The notes below the pieces were generated by a model, which saw only the letters and a list, made by a program, of their open reading frames with translations, was not told where the DNA came from and searched no databases. Below are positions 759-19,639 of a stretch of 22,371 nucleotides of DNA, piece by piece. The stretch's first letter is position 1. Each line of letters opens with the position of its first letter. Made by a program: the position numbers and the translations under genes. This DNA is from a virus. The stretch covers positions 1 through 22,371 of IMG/VR virus record IMGVR_UViG_3300050821_000084; one strand, 5' to 3'.

Positions 759-1346
759 TCACCCCACTCGTCGCAGCCGGTAGACAGTTGGCGGCGGGAC
801 CTGCATCGGCGATTGCAGGACTGCCAAGCCTTGCCATGCCCATGCGAAGGCAAAGCGACTCATGGAACCATCCGGCTTGATGATGGCGATCCCGATGCCG
901 AGTGCATTCGAGCCGGCCACGTTGCCGAGCCAGGATGTATTGACGACAACCTGTTTCGCTATGCCGTCAGTTACCAGCCATTGCAAGGCATCGGACGCAT
1001 AGCGGCGTGCAAGGCCCAGCGTGTCGCGGGTTTTCTTCGCGCGTTCCAGTTGCCACAGGTTCGATCCAAGCGGCTGATCGTTGTAAGGATCAGCCCACCA
1101 GCCGCGCCGGTCGGACGTTCCGTCAGTTGGCACGAAATCAGCCGTCGCCAGCTTGTCGGTGAACAGCGACACGAGACACGCTGTCTCCAGGTCCTGGCCG
1201 GTCTGCAAGTCGCCTTCTGCCAGCGACCAGTCGCCTTGCGCATTGACGTTATCCCACGCAATGAAGACATCGCCGGCATCATTGGCAGGCGGCGGCTGCG
1301 TGCCGTCAGAAATGATCCACAGGCCCAGGTCTTCAATCCAGGACAT
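759..1346 (-). CDS. Mu gp46-like baseplate protein
   Basis: This 195-residue protein belongs to the phage GP46 family, a small baseplate component found next to gp47/J in Mu-like tails. The diagnostic segments are visible in order: [14 protein letters not shown] near residue 55, [20 protein letters not shown] near 80-100, the [10 protein letters not shown] segment, then [20 protein letters not shown], and a beta-rich C-terminus. The DRRGWW and [10 protein letters not shown] motifs are typical of the family. The ATG at 1346 overlaps the end of the upstream spike-fibre gene by 14 bases, so translation is probably coupled. The exact structural role of gp46 proteins is less well established than that of gp47. 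Confidence 0.9.
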
Positions 1347-3894
1347 TCAACCGGCTTTCCAGGTCTGCGACCTTTGCAGCAAGTTGCTGCACCGCACCGC
1401 ACAGCGCGGCGATCATCGTGTTGGCATTGATCGCCCACATCGTCGTGGCACCCTTGCTGGCTCCCTCTTCACTGCCGACGATGGCTGCGTGGGGCAGCAC
1501 TTCGTGAACGCGCTGTGCGACGAGGCCGATCGGCACCACGGGTGCATCGGCGTTCGCCACAGGCGCGGCGGACAGGTCGCTGTAATCGCGCCAACGGAAT
1601 TGGTGCAGCGGCATTGCGCGGATCGCCTCGAGGCAATCGAAGCTGGCGGGCTCGATGTCGAATTTCAGCCGTTCATCCGAGGTGCCCTGCAAGGCCCATT
1701 CCGCCGCATTATCGACGCGGATAAAGGTGGTGGCGCCGTCCCAGCGGAAGTTGAAGCCACTCGCGCCGATATTGTCATATTCAATACCGCGTCCCTGGAC
1801 ATGCACATCCGATATGAAGTGCAGGTCGCCGGAACCACCACAATACCAGAGATAACCACCCGGCCCGATCCACGTCAGCGTGCCGTTGGTGGCGTTCCAA
1901 TCATAATACCAGCCCGGCGCGAACTGCATGATGACGCCATTGCCGCCTGCACCAATGGCGGTGTTGCCGGCACGGCACGCCATATTGCCGGTGAATTGCG
2001 CGTTACCCACATTGTCGATCCACATCGCAGTGGCATTGTTGGCGATATAGTTCAACTGACCATTGGATACGCTCCAGGCGAAGTAATATCCGCTTTGAAA
2101 ATTGATGACGTTGTTCGTGCCGTCACCATTCAAGTAGAAACTCGGCGCGGTCGGAAATGAGATATAAGCCGCGCCGCTGGTGATGATGTTCCCGCTGACA
2201 CTGAACGTGTTGGTCGCGTCTTCCAGCGCGAGAACAATGTCGCCGCCATAGGCAAAGCCGAGATAGCCTTGCCGCGTGCCTGCCGCATTGAAAAAGCCGA
2301 CATAGCCTGTGTGCGTGGCATCCCCAGGAACAAGCTGAACCGCGCCGACGCCTTGGCCGACTCCTACCGGCCCAGTAAGCGTGCCGCCAGTGATGGGCAG
2401 CACCTGGGTCCATGCTGCACTCACCCGGCCATATACCAAGCCGTTCGACGGCGCTTCTGCGATCCCCGGCCCCTGCGGTCCGGTCGCACCCTGCGGGCCT
2501 TGCGGTCCGGTTGCGCCGGTCGGTCCAGCAGGACCTGTCGCGCCGGTTGGGCCTTCCGGTCCAGGCACGGTGGAAGCAGCACCCTGCGGCCCCTGCGGGC
2601 CGGTCAATCCGATGGGACCTTGCGGGCCTTCCGGTCCAGTTGATCCGGTCGCGCCGGTCAGCCCCTGCGGGCCTTGCGGACCTGGAACCGTGGAGTCTGC
2701 TCCGGCAGGTCCTTCAGGACCTGTCGCCCCGGTCGCTCCAGTCGTGCCCTGCGGGCCTTGCGGTCCTGTCGGGCCTTCCGGTCCAGGCACGGTCGATGCC
2801 GCCCCCTGCGGGCCTTCCGGTCCAGCAGGACCTGTCGCGCCGGTCGGGCCTTCCGGTCCAGTCAGACCAATCGGCCCCTGCGGGCCGGCAGGACCTGGAA
2901 CCGTGGAGTCTGCTCCAGGCGGTCCCTGCGGTCCGGTTGCTCCGGTCGCTCCAGTCGTTCCTGGCGGGCCTTCCGGTCCTGTCGGGCCTTCCGGTCCAGG
3001 CACAGTCGATGCCGGTCCCTGCGGCCCCTGTGGGCCGGTTGCGCCGGCAGGTCCTTCAGGTCCTGTCAGTCCAATCGGGCCTTGCGGACCTGGAACCGTG
3101 GAGTCTGCCCCGGCAGGTCCCTGTGGTCCGGTTGCTCCGGTCGCTCCGGCTGCGCCCTGCGGGCCTTCCGGTCCTGTCGGGCCTTCCGGTCCAGGCACCG
3201 TCGACGCCGCGCCCTGCGGCCCCTGTGGGCCGGTCTGGCCGGTCTGTCCTGGCGGGCCTTGCTGTCCGGTCTGGCCGGTCGGGCCGGCAGGTCCTTCAGG
3301 TCCAGCAGGTCCTGTCGGTCCAGCCGGCCCCTGTGGTCCTGGTGGTCCTTCAGGTCCAGGCGTGCCGCCGCCCCCGCCGCCGTGCGTGTCCACGTAGTTC
3401 TTTGTGGCGACCTCGTTGGGCTGGGCAGGTTCATACGCCATGGTCTGCCGGCCCTCGACGTGGACCAGCGGCGTCGTCATGGTCACAGTGCTGGAAGCGT
3501 TCACCTCGACCTGGGGAACGGTCATGGTGTGCTTGCCGGTTGCGGTCACTTCAATGTTGCCGCCGTTCGCCAGCTTCACCACGCTTCCAGAATTGTCATG
3601 CAGCGCGACTTCGCCCTGCTTCTGATTGCGCAGTCGGTATTGCTGATTGCCGGTTGCCACGATGACGCCATTCGACCTGTCGCCAGACGCGAAGATCCCC
3701 ATCGCGTCTGATCCTGGCGGCGCATGCGATGCCAGACCATAAATTTGCAACGTCGGCATGGCGTCGATTGTCTCAGGCGGGAAGCCTCGGACCTGGACGC
3801 GATGAACCGGCCCGCTGTCATCCGTCGCGGTGATCTTCAGCGGAGCAACCATCATCCGCGCCGCCCGGTAAAGCCGGTCGGTCACGCTGCTCAT
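1333..3894 (-). CDS. Mu gp45-like baseplate spike fused to collagen-like fibre with S74 chaperone domain
   Basis: This 853-residue protein has four parts. Residues 1-155 resemble Mu gp45, the trimeric central spike: a Gly/Val-rich OB-like region with [10 protein letters not shown] and [17 protein letters not shown], then [15 protein letters not shown] and a beta-helix-like stem. Residues 156-176 hold a fibre motif (ATKNYVDT) and a six-glycine linker. Residues 178-476 are Gly-X-Y collagen repeats broken seven times by STVPGP. Residues 485-735 are a beta-rich fibre body. Residues 738-853 are a peptidase S74 intramolecular chaperone with the TSDERLK cleavage motif (Ser739, Asp740, Lys744) and a C-terminal coiled coil. 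The ATG at 3894 overlaps the hub gene stop (ATGA); the open frame extends upstream to 4041, but that part only shadows the hub gene. All four parts are trimeric in known relatives. Ordinary gp45 proteins are about 200 residues, so this is an unusual fusion. Confidence 0.9.
2467..3363 (-). repeat. Collagen-like Gly-X-Y repeat tract with STVPGP-delimited higher-order units
   Basis: This stretch encodes residues 178-476 of the spike-fibre protein, close to 100 Gly-X-Y triplets. Seven STVPGP interruptions start at residues 231, 264, 296, 330, 367, 401 and 441. They alternate between [14 protein letters not shown] and GAD-STVPGP(Q/A)G contexts, which gives larger units of 65, 71 and 74 residues. 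The DNA repeats too: a 23-base match occurs at 2678-2700, 2891-2913 and 3086-3108, and a 20-base match at 2549-2568, 2771-2790, 2984-3003 and 3179-3198, the latter spaced 222, 213 and 195 bases apart. Confidence 0.93.
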
Positions 3895-5087
3895 GTCTGC
3901 ACCGTAGAGGCAGCAGGATTGAGCTTGTCCGCATTCGGCTTGGTCGGATTGAATCCTTTCACGTCTTCCTGCGTGACCAAGGTATTCGGTGACGTTGGCG
4001 CAACCGAGAACGCTTCCGGTGGCCATAGCGACAGGTGGCAATGCTGGCCGGCTTCATCGCGAACATAGGTCACGGAGCCGATCAGCCAGGATTTATTCGG
4101 CAGCTTCAGTTGCGGCGCGGCAATCGGTGCCAGCATGTTCGGTGCCCACAGCTTGCCGGCTGCATCGCGCCATGCATCGCATACCACGTTGAAGGCGAAT
4201 GACTGGCCCCAGCGTCGTGCCTTCTCCCATGCTGCACGCTGACCGGCCAGTGGCTGGCCGAGCACGAACTGTTCGGAAATCACGTAGAGCTTGCGGAACC
4301 GGGGAACGTCTTCATCCTTCACCACCACGCCGATCTGCGGCATGTTCACCCCGGCATCCGTTCCAAGTGCGGCGACCGAGATCAGATGGCCCTCGTATTC
4401 CGAATAGCGTTGGTCCATCGAGAACATGACATCCGCTGACTCGACGTTCTCACCAATGGCGAAGCCGGATGCCATCGACTCAGTGCCGACGGTTGCCAGC
4501 ATGATCGAACCGTCTGGCATATCGTAGACCAGCAGCCGCGAGTATTTGGTCACGCGGTCGATGATGTCCCACACGGTTTCGCCAAGGTTGATATTGAATT
4601 GCGGGATTTGCGGCAGACCTGTCGCGGTGCTTTGCACCGGCACGCCGTAAGGCTTGGCCAACCGCTGCGCAATGGTCAGTGCGTCGCCGTTGACAACCTG
4701 CATCCCTGGAGCGGATTGCTCGCCTGCGCTGATACCTTCCACCAGTGCCGAGCAATCGCACAGGTCCTGCGACTTGCTGCGGCCTTCAACGCGGATCGTA
4801 TGCTGTCCTGACGCAATGGATGACGCATAGCGATCAACGTATCCGGTCATCACCAGATCGCCGCCGATGGTGACGGTGCATGGCTGGCCAGCCTTCAGGT
4901 CGATGTCAGGCGCATTCGGGTATTTCTCAGTCACTTCGATCGAAAAGTTGGCAGGTATGCCGGCCAGCGGGCGTGTCATCTGCACACGCTGCCAGCCTGA
5001 CAGCACCTGATTGCCGACCGTCAGGGACAAGGTATCCGTGGACCCTGGTGGCGTTCCGCGTGGTGGCACGCCATGCGCTTCGCTCAT
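3891..5087 (-). CDS. Mu gpP-like baseplate hub protein
   Basis: This 398-residue protein matches the Mu gpP (gp44) / phage late control D-like hub family, the T4 gp27 counterpart that forms the centre of the baseplate and receives the spike. Seen here are the N-terminal [19 protein letters not shown] segment, the beta-barrel start [30 protein letters not shown] (a hub barrel signature), the YVDRY and [17 protein letters not shown] motifs, and the central [20 protein letters not shown] segment that places the second barrel. The start overlaps the preceding stop (ATGA at 5084-5087), and its own stop overlaps the ATG of the spike fusion. Order gpN, gpP, gp45 is the Mu order. The C-terminal 30 residues (Asn/Pro/Lys-rich) look unstructured. 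Confidence 0.92.
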
Positions 5088-5650: not shown

Positions 5651-6456
5651 AGCAGGCTTGCCGTCAGGTTGACCAGACCGGCTGCGGCGTAGACTGCCGT
5701 GCGGGCCTTCGTGGCATCGCTCAGAACGCTTTGGACGGTCGCGGTGGCTGGCTGCATGGTTGTGCGGCTGCCGGTCCCGAACCGGCCATAGAAGCCTTGC
5801 AGACCGCGCACGCAGTTGAATATGCGCGAGGCATCATTCATCGAGCCGGATGCCATGCTGGTGAACTGACTGATGCCTGCCGTTGCCTGCCGTGCGACGT
5901 TGCCGATGCCGGCCAGCGAAATCCCCAGGTCCGAGGCGGATGCCATGTTCAGCGCGCCGGCTTGCGCCAGGACATTCTGACCTGTGGCAATCATGGTGGA
6001 CGGAAACTGGACGTCGCCGGCAATGATGAATGAGAACTGAACCTCGACCACGCGGCCACGCTCGCGCCGGTCTGTCACCTGGAACTCCAGCATAACGCAT
6101 TCGATGCTGCCAAGCGTGGGATGCACCAGCGTCCCAGGTCCAGGCTGTTCGCAGGCGTCGATCATGGCGTCCCGCTGCTGGTAGACATCATCGCCCACCA
6201 TGAAAGCCTGGACCGAGAAGCGCCGGGGCAGCTTGCCCAGGTCTTCTGCCCAGGCATCATCGCGGTATGGGTATTCGTGGATGGCGACACGCCGACCGGC
6301 CACCGTGTCGCCGGCATCCAGCACGAAGCCGACGCCGCGCCAGGACCCCGGTTGAAGTTGCAGGAACCATGAACCATCGGCCCAGCTTTCGCCGGTATTG
6401 TCGATGATGCGTGACGTTCCAAGCGTCTGCGTCACAAGCCCGGTGAAGTCGCTCAT
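5647..6456 (-). CDS. N-terminal part of gpN-like / DNA circularisation family tail protein
   Basis: This 269-residue protein carries the DNA_circ_N domain of Mu gpN-type proteins, now regarded mainly as baseplate or tail structural proteins. Residues 25-145 show the expected pattern: QPGSWRGVGFVLDAGD, then GRRVAIHEYPYRDDAWAEDL, LPRRFSVQAFMVGDDVYQQR, DAMIDACEQPGPGTLVHPTL, and the beta strand ending VEVQFSFI. The protein ends at residue 269, where single-gene relatives continue for about 200 more residues; the next gene supplies that part. The ATG at 6456 overlaps the tape-measure stop (ATGA). The stop overlaps the GTG of the following gene. Confidence 0.87.
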   Translation of the reverse strand: MSDFTGLVTQTLGTSRIIDNTGESWADGSWFLQLQPGSWRGVGFVLDAGDTVAGRRVAIHEYPYRDDAWAEDLGKLPRRFSVQAFMVGDDVYQQRDAMIDACEQPGPGTLVHPTLGSIECVMLEFQVTDRRERGRVVEVQFSFIIAGDVQFPSTMIATGQNVLAQAGALNMASASDLGISLAGIGNVARQATAGISQFTSMASGSMNDASRIFNCVRGLQGFYGRFGTGSRTTMQPATATVQSVLSDATKARTAVYAAAGLVNLTASLL

Positions 6457-8459
6457 ATGCTGGCCATGTCCTGATGTTCGACGCGCACGGGTGCCACGTT
6501 CACTGATCCTGATCCGCTGGCCGTTACGGCGCTGTTCGGTGGCGGGTTCTTATGCGTGATGGAAACATCGACCGCGCCGTTGACCGGCTGCGGTGCCTGC
6601 GCAACCTGGACAGGCGGTGCCTTGGCGCTGGCAATTTGGTTCGCGTAGTTCATCCGCACGCCGGCATTGCTGACGGCTGGACGTTCATATTCGCGTTCGA
6701 CCAGCGAGGCCGCTTCACCGGAAGACTTTGTGCCGCGCAGCCGGCCCATCATGCCGGCATATTCCGGGGAGTTTAGCTCTTGCCGCAGGAAGCCATAATT
6801 CGCTTCGTCGCTCTTGGGGTCCAGGTTGTTCGCCTTGGCATATGCCTCGAAGGCATCGCGGCGTGGTCCGGTCCATTGCGCCCAACCGAAGCCACCGCGC
6901 CCGCTGATCGGCTTGCCTTCCTGGACGGCTTGCAGACCTGACTCCGCTTGCAGGTTGCCGACCAAGCCTGATGCCTGATCCGGCGTTAGGTTCAGGTCTG
7001 CCGCCAGCTTGTCGCGGATGGCTGCGCCGCGCTGCGCATTGGCTTGCGGCAGGTTCATCGGTCCTGGTGCTGCCTGCTGCTGGATAGCTTCAGGCCCCTT
7101 CCACATCCGCTCCAGGCCCTTTTCAAGCCAGCCTCCGCCGCCTGCTGGTCTGCCCTGGCGCTTCATCATGTCTTCGTATGACAGCGTTTCGCCGGTTGCC
7201 TGATTGTGGAAGGTGGGCAGGCCGAACGCGCCGCCTGACTGCTGGTCGAAGCCCATCGCCTTCGCTTTGTCTTCGATGTCCTTCTGACCTGCCTTGTTTT
7301 TTTCATAGGTGGTGACCAAGGCAAGCGCAGCAGCAATGGGGGCGAGCGCAGCAGACAATGGACCAAGTGCCACCACCACCTGACCAATGGAAGCAACCAT
7401 GCCGACAGCCCACTTCAACGCGAAGGCTGCGGCAATCGCCTCGGCAACATCTTTGATGGTATCCAGGTGCGTGACCACCCACTTGAGTCCATCAATCACG
7501 CTCTCGATGCCGGCTTGCACCTTGGTCCAGTCCACATTCTCCAGCCACGCCGCGAATTTCTGCGAAATCTCGTCAACCGCTTTGATGATGTCTGGCGTGT
7601 GCTTTTCTACGAACTCGCTGAACCGTTGAAGCAGTGGGCCGAAGTCGCGCGCCAGGACAATCGAAATCTGTTGCCCCAGCCGGTCGATGGCAACGCCGGC
7701 CCTGCCTTGCGCCTCGCTGAACTGTTGCAGCGTCTTGCGCTGCTCGTCGGTCAGGTCCTGGTATCGGCTGACATCCGAGAACCATTGGCCGAAGGTCTGG
7801 CTGGATTGCCGGAACGTCTCCACCAATTTGCTGCCGCTCGCGCCCAGCGTGGCGGTTGCAGCACTGGCGCGGTCGTATGGGTCCGTTAGACCACTGACCT
7901 TGCGGATCACTTCCGGCATCAGGTCTGCGGCGCTGCGCAGGTTGCCGTTCGCATCGCGGATGTTGATACCCAGCCGGTTGAACCACTGGATAGCTTCAGT
8001 GCCGCCCTTGCCGATGGCGATGTCGCCTATCGTCTGGTGCAAGCTGGTCAGGCTGTCGGTCATCGTGGACGCTTCGCCGCCGGCAAGGCGCGTCGCGTCC
8101 TGGAACTGTTGCAACTGCTGCGTGGTGATGCCGATGTCGTCGGCATTCTGGACAAGCTGGTGTGACCACGAGGCATAGGACTGCACCAGCTTGACCATAC
8201 CGGCGATGGATGCCGCGCCGGTCAGCGCGCCCATCACCGGGACGATGGCAGTCAGCGTGCGCAGGACAGTGGAAGCAGCCTTGCCGATCCACTCGAAGCC
8301 TTGCGCAACCTTGCGCAGACCGGACACGTCAACGAACCTGGATACTTGCCGCGACATCCGGTCCATCGGCGCACGCATCGCGGTGATGCGCCGGTTGATT
8401 GCCTCGATTTGCTTCGTCGCATTGTCAACGACGGAATAGGTGACGGAATATCCAGCCAT
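6453..8459 (-). CDS. Tail tape measure protein with C-terminal phage tail lysozyme domain
   Basis: This 668-residue protein sits at the tape-measure position between the tail chaperone and gpN. The N-terminus (VDNATKQIEAINRRITAMRA) is helical, followed by hydrophobic segments near residues 61-95 and 335-385 and long helical stretches such as LTDEQRKTLQQFSEAQGRAG. Residues about 478-612 resemble the phage tail lysozyme domain (Phage_lysozyme2): LTPDQASGLVGNLQAESGLQ with a candidate catalytic Glu506, then GGFGWAQWTGPRRDAFEAYA. The C-terminal 45 residues (DVSITHKNPPPNSAVTASGS) match the tail end seen on other Mu-type tape measures. By family function it sets tail length and enters the cell envelope during infection; the lysozyme would open the peptidoglycan locally. 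The ATG shares a base pair overlap (TAATG) with the stop of the frameshifted chaperone product. Confidence 0.9.
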   Translation of the reverse strand: MAGYSVTYSVVDNATKQIEAINRRITAMRAPMDRMSRQVSRFVDVSGLRKVAQGFEWIGKAASTVLRTLTAIVPVMGALTGAASIAGMVKLVQSYASWSHQLVQNADDIGITTQQLQQFQDATRLAGGEASTMTDSLTSLHQTIGDIAIGKGGTEAIQWFNRLGINIRDANGNLRSAADLMPEVIRKVSGLTDPYDRASAATATLGASGSKLVETFRQSSQTFGQWFSDVSRYQDLTDEQRKTLQQFSEAQGRAGVAIDRLGQQISIVLARDFGPLLQRFSEFVEKHTPDIIKAVDEISQKFAAWLENVDWTKVQAGIESVIDGLKWVVTHLDTIKDVAEAIAAAFALKWAVGMVASIGQVVVALGPLSAALAPIAAALALVTTYEKNKAGQKDIEDKAKAMGFDQQSGGAFGLPTFHNQATGETLSYEDMMKRQGRPAGGGGWLEKGLERMWKGPEAIQQQAAPGPMNLPQANAQRGAAIRDKLAADLNLTPDQASGLVGNLQAESGLQAVQEGKPISGRGGFGWAQWTGPRRDAFEAYAKANNLDPKSDEANYGFLRQELNSPEYAGMMGRLRGTKSSGEAASLVEREYERPAVSNAGVRMNYANQIASAKAPPVQVAQAPQPVNGAVDVSITHKNPPPNSAVTASGSGSVNVAPVRVEHQDMASI

Positions 8460-16123: not shown

Positions 16124-17469
16124 CCCCCGGCCCCTCCAGGTTGCGGCTGCGGCGCAGCGGCAGTGGGTGCATTGCTTGCCTCGGACGGCGCTTCTGCGGT
16201 TGGCGGCTGGTCAGTTGGCACAGCGGTGTTCAACGGCACGCGGTATTCGTCGCCGTGGCCGTCGTCTATCGGGTTCATGTTCTCCCTGGCGCGCACCTCG
16301 TTGCGTGACATCCAGCCATTGAGCGTGCCGATCTGATATGCCTGGAACCTCGTCAGCAGGTCACCCCTGGTCATGTCATCGAAGTCGAATTTGCATTCCA
16401 AGGTCATACGCTCGTCATCGAATAACAGGTGATGATCGAACAACTGTTCCAGCGACCGCGTGACCGGCTTTAGCGCGCTGTCAACGTATTGCTGATTCTG
16501 TTGCTCGATATTGTTCAGCGTTGCCTTGTCAAGTTCGCCAAGCCGGTGCGGTGGCACGCCATACAGACGGCATATGTCGACAACCTGGAAGCGGCGTGTC
16601 TCCAGGAACTGCGCTTCCTCGTTGGTGATCGCCACCTTGTCGAATTTCATGCCTTCCTCAAGCACCGCAGCCTTGTGGGCGTTCTGCACGCCGGCATGCG
16701 TCTCGCGCCAGGAATTGGCGATGCGGTCTGCTGCTTCCTTGGATAGCTTGCCAGGATGACTGATCACACCGCCGATCTGCCCACCTTGGCGGAACAGGAC
16801 GCTTCCATGTTGCTGCGTGGCCAGTGCAAGGCCGATGACATCCTGCGCAATGGCGATGGGGGAGACACCGACATACCCATCCATGCTGATATTCTTAATG
16901 TGGATCATGTCATCAGGCGGCACGACCAGACCGTATCCAAGCCGGCGGCTATTGATGCGATACCAGAGTTCACCATCATCGGTCAGCATGATCGTGCAGC
17001 GATCAGGAGCGATGGGGACAAGCTCTATGGGGTTCGCGTCACTATCACGTTCGACTACCACGAAGGCATTGCCGCGCAGGCAGAGCGACGTAATGCCGTA
17101 GCCGATAAACTCGAACCATGTTTGCCAGCGGTTCGGCCTGACGAAGACCTTGTTGAGCGGATGCCTTAGCTCGCGCTTGTATCCGCCGCCGCCCAGCTTT
17201 CGCCGGATGAACGGCGAGAGCATTGCGATGTCCTGGCTGATTGCACGAATGCAGCCATACACCGCTGCGGCTTGCAGCGCGGTAAACGGCGTGACCGGCA
17301 CGCCGGTATTCGATGCATAGCCACCAAGCGCGGCATACAGCATCGGCTGCGGCCAGCCCAGACCGCCCAAGGTAGACGTGACAGCAGCATCGGCCTTCTG
17401 GACTGCCGGCATCATCAGACGCGGCTCGCGCGCCGTGCCCTGAAGGGAACCGTATGGTCGCAAGGTCAT
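16120..17469 (-). CDS. HK97-type portal protein
   Basis: This 449-residue protein forms the dodecameric DNA gate at one head vertex. It has the HK97 portal sequence: [20 protein letters not shown] (start of the core), the [20 protein letters not shown] helix, the [14 protein letters not shown] strand, [36 protein letters not shown], and the [20 protein letters not shown] motif preceding the crown. The last 45 residues are Pro/Ala-rich and probably disordered. The ATG at 17469 overlaps the upstream fibre stop (ATGA), so portal translation is coupled to that of a fibre gene, which is unusual. Confidence 0.95.
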
Positions 17470-19295
17470 GTTGCTGGCCCCAGGTCTACGATCATGTATT
17501 GCGAGCGATCCGTCACACTCGCATCGCCGCCAGTGATCGAAACCGGCTGGAGTGGTGCAGCACTGCCACCGTCCACCAATCGAAGCTGGATGGTCACGAC
17601 CGGATTAAATCCGGTGACATCCGCATACAGGTTGACCGTGAAGCCGGTTGCCGTGCGCTCGCCGCTCAGAAGCTGCATACCGTATATCCAGACGCGACGC
17701 TCGGGGTTGCCCATGATGCGCGCGGCTGCAAGCACGATGCCTTGCCCGTTTGGTCCGCCTGTTCCGGTCAGCTTCACATTGGCTGACAGGCTGACCATGA
17801 TCCGCGAAATACCGCCGCGCTGAATCGGGTAGGCTCGGACATCCAGGTTGAGCCATTCACCCGTCTCGGGAAGCGGGAAATCAATCGGGACGTTGTAAAG
17901 CAATGCAGGCGACCGCTGCTGCGTATCAACGTAAGACTTGGTTGCGGCATCCTGCGGCGCAGTCGGCATGCCAAGTGCAGTGATCTTCTGATTGACCATG
18001 CTTATCGGCACGGCAACCATCATCTGATTGTAGAACCACTGCATGACGACTTCGCCGCTGATCCCGACAACCACGACGTTGCCGGTGCGGTAGAAGCCGG
18101 TTGAATTGTCGCCGATTGCCAGACCTGGATCAGTGACGCTGGTGCCGCGCGCTGTTATCAGCGTGCCGTCCATCTGCCCGCCAGCCTTGGGAAGATACGG
18201 CGTCAGGTCAGGCAGCAGCGAGTCGGCGTAGCGTTTGGTGGCTGCCTGATCCGCGACAACCGGATCAGCCGCCAGCAGCAGCGCGCCGGTCATCTGTCCG
18301 CCATCCTTGCGGAGATACGGTCCCAGGTCAGGGACCAGCGCATCTGCATAACGCTTGGTCGCAGCTTGCAGGTCTGTTGCCGGATCAGCCGCGAGCGCCA
18401 GCGGTCCTAGCATCTGCCCGCCATCGAGGCGTAGATACGGCGTCAGGTCAGGTGGCAGACCGTCCGCATACCGCTTGGTCACGGCATGGTCAGGCTGCGT
18501 CGGGTCCAGGTCCAGCGAGAACGCCGCCCTTGCTCGTGATGCTTCCAGCAACAGTGTTTCGCCATTGATCGTCAGACCGCCCTGGAGCGTTCCGCCGGTC
18601 AGGGGCAGCACTGCAATCCAGCCGTGATTCAGCCGGCCATACGTCAAGCCTGGAGGCGCGTCGGGGAATGACGGCGGACCTTCAATGCCCTGCGGGCCTT
18701 GCTCCCCCTGGTCGCCTTGGGGACCTTGGATGCCTGGATCGCCACGCGGACCTGCTGGACCGATGCCGCCCTGCGGGCCGGCTGATCCTGGCAGACCTGC
18801 TGGACCTGCTGGACCTGCTACGCCCTGGTCGCCGCGCACGCCCTGGACGCCTTGCAGACCGGGCGGGCCGATGCTGCCTTGCGGTCCTGCTGGACCTGGA
18901 ACGCCTTGGGGTCCTTCCGGTCCAATCGGACCTGTCACCGGCCCCAGGCTGATCCATTCATCGCCTGTGTATACGAAGACATGCTGCGCCTGCGGATCAT
19001 CGTCCAATGGCTGGTAGACCACGCCTTGTCCGATGATGACTTGCAGCGCGACCGGCGGTCTGCCTGGACCATCGAAGTCGGCAGGGATCAGACCGTCCAG
19101 CGGCAGGTCCCCAGGCGATGCTACCAGACCGAACACGCCAACGATGGTGGTGACGCGGCCTTCAGGACCTGTCGGACCTGCTGGACCTTCTGGACCCTGC
19201 GGACCTTCCGGCCCTGGCGGTCCAGGCATGCCGGTTTTAACGAGAATGTCGATGGCGCGCGGCTCGCCAAGAATGCCGGTGATGATGTCAGGCAT
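17466..19295 (-). CDS. Collagen-like phage fibre protein located in the head module (609 aa)
   Basis: This 609-residue protein is built of parts. Residues 1-22 form a short hydrophobic anchor ([20 protein letters not shown]). Residues 23-46 are a first collagen block, 47-118 a small globular insert ([15 protein letters not shown]), and 119-208 a second collagen block. Residues 216-239 carry the fibre junction [19 protein letters not shown]. Residues 264-383 are three exact 40-residue repeats (ATKRYAD...GGQM). A last ATKSYVDT motif near 448-455 leads to a beta-rich C-terminal domain ending in [12 protein letters not shown]. The gene lies between large terminase and portal, not with the tail genes. 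ATG at 19295 overlaps the upstream stop (TGATG). Possible roles are a head fibre or a tail fibre encoded out of place; I cannot decide. Confidence 0.87.
18147..18506 (-). repeat. Three tandem 120-bp (40-residue) fibre repeats
   Basis: Units at 18387-18506, 18267-18386 and 18147-18266 encode residues 264-303, 304-343 and 344-383 of the fibre. The consensus core is ATKRYAD...PDL.PYL...GGQM.G.L, and each unit is exactly 40 codons. This kind of repeat is a common fibre-shaft building block; the third copy is the most diverged near its end. Confidence 0.93.
18672..19229 (-). repeat. Two collagen-like Gly-X-Y blocks of the head-module fibre
   Basis: Residues 23-46 (19158-19229) and 119-208 (18672-18941) are Gly-X-Y repeats. 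The blocks are separated by a 70-residue folded insert (18942-19157). They contain no STVPGP breaks, unlike the spike-fibre collagen, so the two collagen regions are not recent copies of one another. Confidence 0.9.
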
Positions 19296-19639
19296 CAGGC
19301 AGAGTCCGTCACAGATGGCGTCACGAAGACATGGCCGGAAACAACGGTCGCAACGGTGCCATCATCCAAGGTCAACTGAAGGTCCCAGACCGCGCTGCGC
19401 CTGTTCAGCTTCAGCGAGTCCTCCTGCGACAGATCAGCCTGGATGACGTTCGGCAGCGTGGTCTTCAGTGGCAACGCCAGGATCAGCGTCCCGCCATGGC
19501 GCTCGCGTATCTCGGACTTGGGCGAGGCAGTGGTCAGGTCGACCGGCTGCGTGCGCTGGCGGTCCTGCCAGAGCGTGAACACCCAGGTCGCGGTATCACC
19601 GCGATACAGTTTCAGGTTGAAGACTGCGGGGGCGAACAC
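19295..19639 (-). CDS. BppU N-terminal domain-like small protein (114 aa)
   Basis: This 114-residue protein reads like the N-terminal domain of BppU-type (DUF2479-like) baseplate upper proteins: [36 protein letters not shown], and the [20 protein letters not shown] strand. In other phages such a domain anchors a fibre or receptor-binding part to the baseplate. Here it is a stand-alone gene whose stop overlaps the ATG of the collagen fibre (TGATG), so it may be the anchor of that fibre. The start is a GTG at 19639 with a distant AAGG; I see no better start. The family match is by pattern only. Confidence 0.72.

Follow-up and report, generated by a model that had tools for sequence, protein, structure and literature searches.

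The central spikes of contractile tails are usually viewed as short, hard, metal-tipped needles. A gene in a viral contig (IMG/VR record IMGVR_UViG_3300050821_000084, positions 1 to 22,371; the 22,371 nucleotides are referred to here as the window) raises the question of whether such a spike can end in a long fibre instead. An earlier note, made from the DNA sequence, had read the gene as a Mu gp45-like spike continued at its tip by a collagen repeat, a fibre body and an S74 chaperone, and its best-supported reading is that the central spike carries a long fibre and does not end in a bare needle. Our analysis led to a similar view: the protein is likely the central spike of a Mu-like contractile baseplate, with the apex replaced by a collagen stalk that ends in an adhesin-type fibre. 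The gene architecture is well supported, while trimerization, location in the virion, cleavage, binding and the order of events are proposed by analogy with the protein families concerned.

Modules of the spike gene

Positions 1333–3894 formed one open reading frame on the minus strand (ATG at 3894, stop codon at 1335–1333), encoding 853 aa (Table 1). A plus-strand reading was rejected as the wrong strand, with three stops. The gene occupied the canonical gp45 locus, in the order hub (gp44), spike, GP46 and baseplate J. Other genes in the window encoded a terminase, portal, S78 protease, capsid, head-completion and tail-terminator proteins. Since the window ends inside the baseplate J gene, the distal fibre genes of this phage and any second spike lie outside the fragment. 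Close to its C-terminus, a tape-measure-like protein (6453–8459, minus strand) contained a tail lysozyme domain (Phage_lysozyme2). Another fibre-like protein with collagen, of 609 aa, was encoded between the terminase and portal genes (17466–19295, minus strand), preceded by a phrog_1084 gene (19295–19639), and is possibly a fibre of the head or tail. Its possible homologues are collagen frames of 588–603 aa in the L090, L094 and L095 contigs.

Table 1. Coordinates of the modules, neighbouring baseplate genes and PAAR genes of two relatives.
Feature	Residues	Position	Strand	Basis
Spike module (gp45 N-terminal/OB part and beta stem)	1–150	3445..3894	-	PF06890, phmmer, Foldseek, AF2
Join: tail-fibre-like motif and Gly linker, at the apex position	151–176	3367..3444	-	Alignments
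Collagen stalk	177–477	2464..3366	-	PF01391 (2.9e-32), block count, 195-bp tandem repeat
Fibre body, beta-rich repeats	478–738	1681..2463	-	Identity to L006/L057 ends, PHROG tail-fibre matches
S74 intramolecular chaperone, with stop codon	739–853	1333..1680	-	PF13884 (2.9e-9)
gp44/GpP baseplate hub gene		3891..5087	-	PF21683, PF22255, PF21929; ATGA overlap with spike gene
GP46 baseplate wedge gene		759..1346	-	PF07409 (6.3e-30); overlaps 3' end of spike gene
Baseplate J-like wedge gene, cut by contig end		2..751	-	PF04865 (1.3e-46)
PAAR tip genes after truncated, apex-less gp45		L058:6438-6716; L060:4669-4938		PF05488

Of the four modules claimed for the protein, the spike, the collagen repeat and the S74 chaperone had Pfam matches, all above the curated cut-offs. 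Residues 21–84 matched Phage_Mu_Gp45 (PF06890; 3.2e-17, 62.7 bits against a cut-off of 24.1). In a sequence search, residues 1–178 matched Mu gp45 (9ki1_V) at 2.5e-9 and P2 gpV entries weakly. The AF2 model of residues 1–176 had a mean pLDDT of 67, with stem blocks at 81–94. Foldseek placed Mu gp45 (9ki1_V) first for this model (3.4e-8), followed by P2 gpV and the R2 pyocin spike, with a match to 3qr8 at 2.6e-5; TM-scores were just 0.4–0.5 because a trimeric stem was modelled as a monomer. The predicted gp45 match of the N-terminal residues was thus found with Pfam and, for 9ki1_V, in both sequence and fold.

The stalk matched Collagen (PF01391) from residue 177 (110.6 bits against a cut-off of 27.2), in agreement with the proposed collagen repeat of about 300 residues. 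Its 91 Gly-X-Y triplets formed 8 blocks, separated by seven regular breaks of the type A(A/D)STVPGP, and the tract contained 16 acidic residues and neither Lys nor Arg. Collagen rises by approximately 0.286 nm per residue. The span of 85 nm given in the earlier note is thus an upper bound, as the triplets account for approximately 78 nm. The exact collagen length could be mis-assembled, given the tandem repeat in its DNA.

The fibre body was 38–41% identical to the spike ends of two relatives (L006 and L057) and had tail-fibre matches in PHROG. A search of INPHARED with the fibre part returned weak matches to Streptococcus phage hyaluronidases and nothing else. Its AF2 model was of low confidence (mean pLDDT 52) and was left out of the fold search. 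At the C-terminus, residues 739–803 matched Peptidase_S74 (PF13884; 37.5 bits against a cut-off of 22), with a weak match to the MYRF S74 domain (7dc3). The residues singled out in the earlier note, Ser739, Asp740 and Lys744 (Ser-Asp-x-x-x-Lys), were invariant across ten aligned S74 domains, which together with the Pfam match confirmed the chaperone. By analogy with this family, the domain probably cleaves itself off at Ser739-Asp740.

Recurrence of the join and its variable ends

Other gp45 proteins with C-terminal collagen were searched for, as the earlier note had suggested. Six relatives were obtained in an initial scan of viral contigs, and five had the spike–collagen join. Scanning with a profile gave 54 loci, 14 of which were fused. 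When the join itself served as the query, four further fused contigs came up (L139, L147, L151, L152); in three of these, the N-terminal spike part had diverged. Besides the window, 18 loci had the join; they lay on 17 contigs, which came from 11 metagenome datasets. Several of these loci were identical in the spike part; 12 distinct spikes were distinguished, including that of the window. Over spike and join, dN/dS between the relatives and the window was 0.05–0.17, indicating purifying selection. The tree was compatible with one or two origins of the fusion.

A tandem repeat such as the collagen array is a typical place for a mis-join, and an assembly artefact could have linked a spike gene to a fibre gene. 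This was refuted by the recurrence of the join in open frames at 18 other loci from 11 datasets and by the purifying selection, so that the probability of an artefact is negligible. The claim of a genuine single-gene fusion is borne out by the other loci.

The fused proteins differed in their ends. S74 fibre ends were found in the window, L006, L007 and L057, a short ASQWDG and coiled-coil-like end in L009, L010, L049, L050, L052–L054, L139 and L152, and other end types again in L008, L055/L056 and L147. The final residues were common to the window, L006 and L007, behind different fibre bodies. The spike end of L007 was 47% identical over 230 aa to a separate S74 tail fibre (L101/L103), which belongs to another fused phage and not to that of L007. 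From the sequences, this likeness fits a swapping of modules between the spike and tail-fibre genes. On a contig of 83 kb (IMGVR_UViG_3300046536_000173; L056, L057, L102, L103, L109), two tail modules were found, each with its own fused spike of differing end type and an integrase-like gene nearby; these are possibly two prophages in one host.

In the short-ended members (types of L009, L049 and L052), the S74 domain was absent and the fibre body small, which means that adhesion may not be a general feature. The collagen could also be a passive, mechanical spacer or shield for the tip, with a fibre end that has no receptor. The many relatives that end soon after the collagen, in a small coiled-coil-like cap, are consistent with this, as is the variable collagen length (24 to 92 triplets across the fused relatives). 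However, the diverse bodies of the S74 fibres in four members, and the end module shared with a separate tail fibre, look like an exchange of adhesins. As a general explanation we regard the passive spacer as unlikely; it may apply chiefly to the short-ended members.

Seven fused contigs extending further downstream contained separate tail-fibre genes after gp48 (L097–L103, L110). The fibre on the spike is therefore an addition, and its candidacy as the sole fibre was ruled out. The same genes bear on a reading with two products, in which the full-length protein would be accompanied by a free fibre, produced from a start at Met152 or by cleavage in the Gly linker, leaving a short working spike and a fibre located elsewhere. 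Met152 was conserved in all fused spikes, with GAGGG or CAGGGG approximately 10 bases upstream. Because these upstream bases code for conserved residues (V-E/Q-G-R-Q-T), however, finding them conserved is not diagnostic of a ribosome site, and their distance from Met152 is long for one. A free fibre starting at Met152 would also have no domain for anchoring to the baseplate, in phages that already have separate tail-fibre genes. We consider two products distinctly unlikely and retain the fusion as a single spike-borne fibre.

The tip of the spike

In phage Mu, gp45 sits on gp44 as a trimer, and its apex contains metal, presumed Fe and Ca ions, thought to provide stability for penetration (PMC11915804). 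The His-X-His motif has been called the only conserved motif of myophage central spikes (PMC11448403). It was found in none of the 14 fused loci, in 25 of 40 plain viral relatives and, near the end of the protein, in 33 of 35 prophage relatives. These 35 prophage proteins, encoded in bacterial genomes, were all short forms of gp45 (122–224 aa) without collagen. The window protein had neither a Pfam Apex match nor a His-X-His metal site. As ten or so plain relatives also lacked the motif, it is typical but not strictly defining; plain spikes without His-X-His, PAAR or fibre were seen in L061, L066, L067 and L090–L096.

The earlier note had taken a single His in the linker as what remains of the metal site. 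The residues after YVD in fused relatives were TH, QH, QT, AN or AH; the linker His is thus not conserved, and its reading as a leftover His-X-His site was not supported. The four modules, the genuine fusion and the position of the join at the spike tip, as interpreted in the note, were supported.

The position of the join was supported by the relatives sharing it, by bare-tipped relatives and by two PAAR-tipped ones. The plain spikes of L058 and L060 (147–148 aa) stop at about the join of the fused proteins, and the next gene, whose start overlaps the stop of the spike gene, encodes a PAAR protein (PF05488; 7.6e-14 and 1.4e-18, respectively). In these Mu-like phages, a natural swap of apex for PAAR was observed. 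Taken together, the relatives with a His-X-His apex, the PAAR-tipped pair and the collagen-fused forms indicate that the tip is a swappable slot with three fillings.

No PAAR gene was found in the other contigs among the 24 searched, 12 fused ones included. The same 12 fused contigs had a single gp45 (PF06890 match) per tail module. Both results bear on the idea that the gp45 part only anchors an off-axis adhesin while another protein does the piercing. Loss of the apex would be tolerable given another piercing spike, and the genomes are incomplete. However, with one PF06890 match per tail module, at the canonical locus, and without a PAAR gene on the 12 fused contigs, an off-axis anchor is less likely, and we judge it improbable. 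The axial position of the fused spike is preferred.

Of the phages with names, phiKM1 and phiAP1 were the closest, and their spikes are plain. A search of 385 genomes from one bacterial class, that of an acetic-acid bacterium, found no close spike (best 37–40%), and the long frames from that search (G749, G479) looked like overlapping frames. In the order of this bacterium, gp45 was present in 97 of 397 genomes. Ten of the longest gp45 frames from this survey included real C-terminal extensions only in L125 and L126, neither with collagen. In L125 (G369:C240), a prophage gp45, the extension was a long, collagen-free repeat fibre that runs off the contig. L126 (G201:C6), also a prophage gp45, had the Apex motif, then a linker and an unassigned domain of approximately 120 aa. 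Two prophage spikes with the same C-terminus (L030, L031) came from MAGs labelled Telmatospirillum and Acidobacteriia, possibly through a binning mix-up. A literature search for spike or gp45 with collagen or fibre found no such fusion in the papers covered. Each module is already known; what was absent from the papers searched is a piercing spike with all of them combined at its tip.

Proposed mechanism and comparison with known systems

We propose that the N-terminal part and beta stem would be seated on the gp44 hub, and that the stalk, up to approximately 80 nm long, would extend along the tail axis. The fibre body would fold as a trimer with the help of S74, which would then probably cleave itself at Ser739-Asp740. 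The piercing spike probably doubles as a central antenna that touches the host: the fibre end would contact or bind the cell surface no later than the lateral fibres, so centring the baseplate. Contraction would drive the stem in, and the flexible stalk would bend aside or be dragged along. Entry would take place without a hard tip, for which the stem itself may suffice.

As a more tentative proposal, possible although we would not call it probable, this lineage pierces without a hard metal tip and uses the central collagen fibre to sense the host and guide or trigger injection, where relatives fill the same slot with a His-X-His apex or a PAAR cone. A tip replaced by a collagen fibre questions the need for a sharp apex in piercing, and the relatives tipped with His-X-His or with a separate PAAR form a ready comparison set for tip function.

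The N-terminal part and beta stem are like those of Mu gp45 and P2 gpV (PF06890; 9ki1, 3qr8, 3vto), and so is the gene order gp44-gp45-gp46-gp47; the window spike would likewise be seated on its hub. While a compact, metal-binding His-X-His apex forms the end of the Mu and P2 spikes, the window spike continues into collagen, fibre and S74, and the protein is >4 times as long. The Gly-X-Y stalk with regular interruptions resembles the side tail fibres EPclA and EPclB of E. coli prophages, which are trimeric phage fibres with capping domains (PMC3368898); the window protein would likewise be a trimer. The anchor differs, being PfN in EPclA and EPclB and the central spike in the window. S74 tail fibres and tailspikes (PF13884) share the C-terminal Ser-Asp-x-x-x-Lys chaperone behind a variable fibre body, but have a lateral fibre attachment domain at the N-terminus in place of a piercing spike. 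Spikes with a separate PAAR (T4 gp5/gp5.4, VgrG/PAAR, L058 and L060) are alike in having the tip slot capped by another module. PAAR is a small, sharp, separate cone, whereas the module in the window is fused, long and collagenous. The central tail fibres of siphophages are also axial, located at the tail tip, and may bind a receptor; siphophage tails are non-contractile, and the protein at the fibre base is unrelated to the window spike. With the fused forms, contractile phages would have a central fibre comparable to those known from tails that do not contract.
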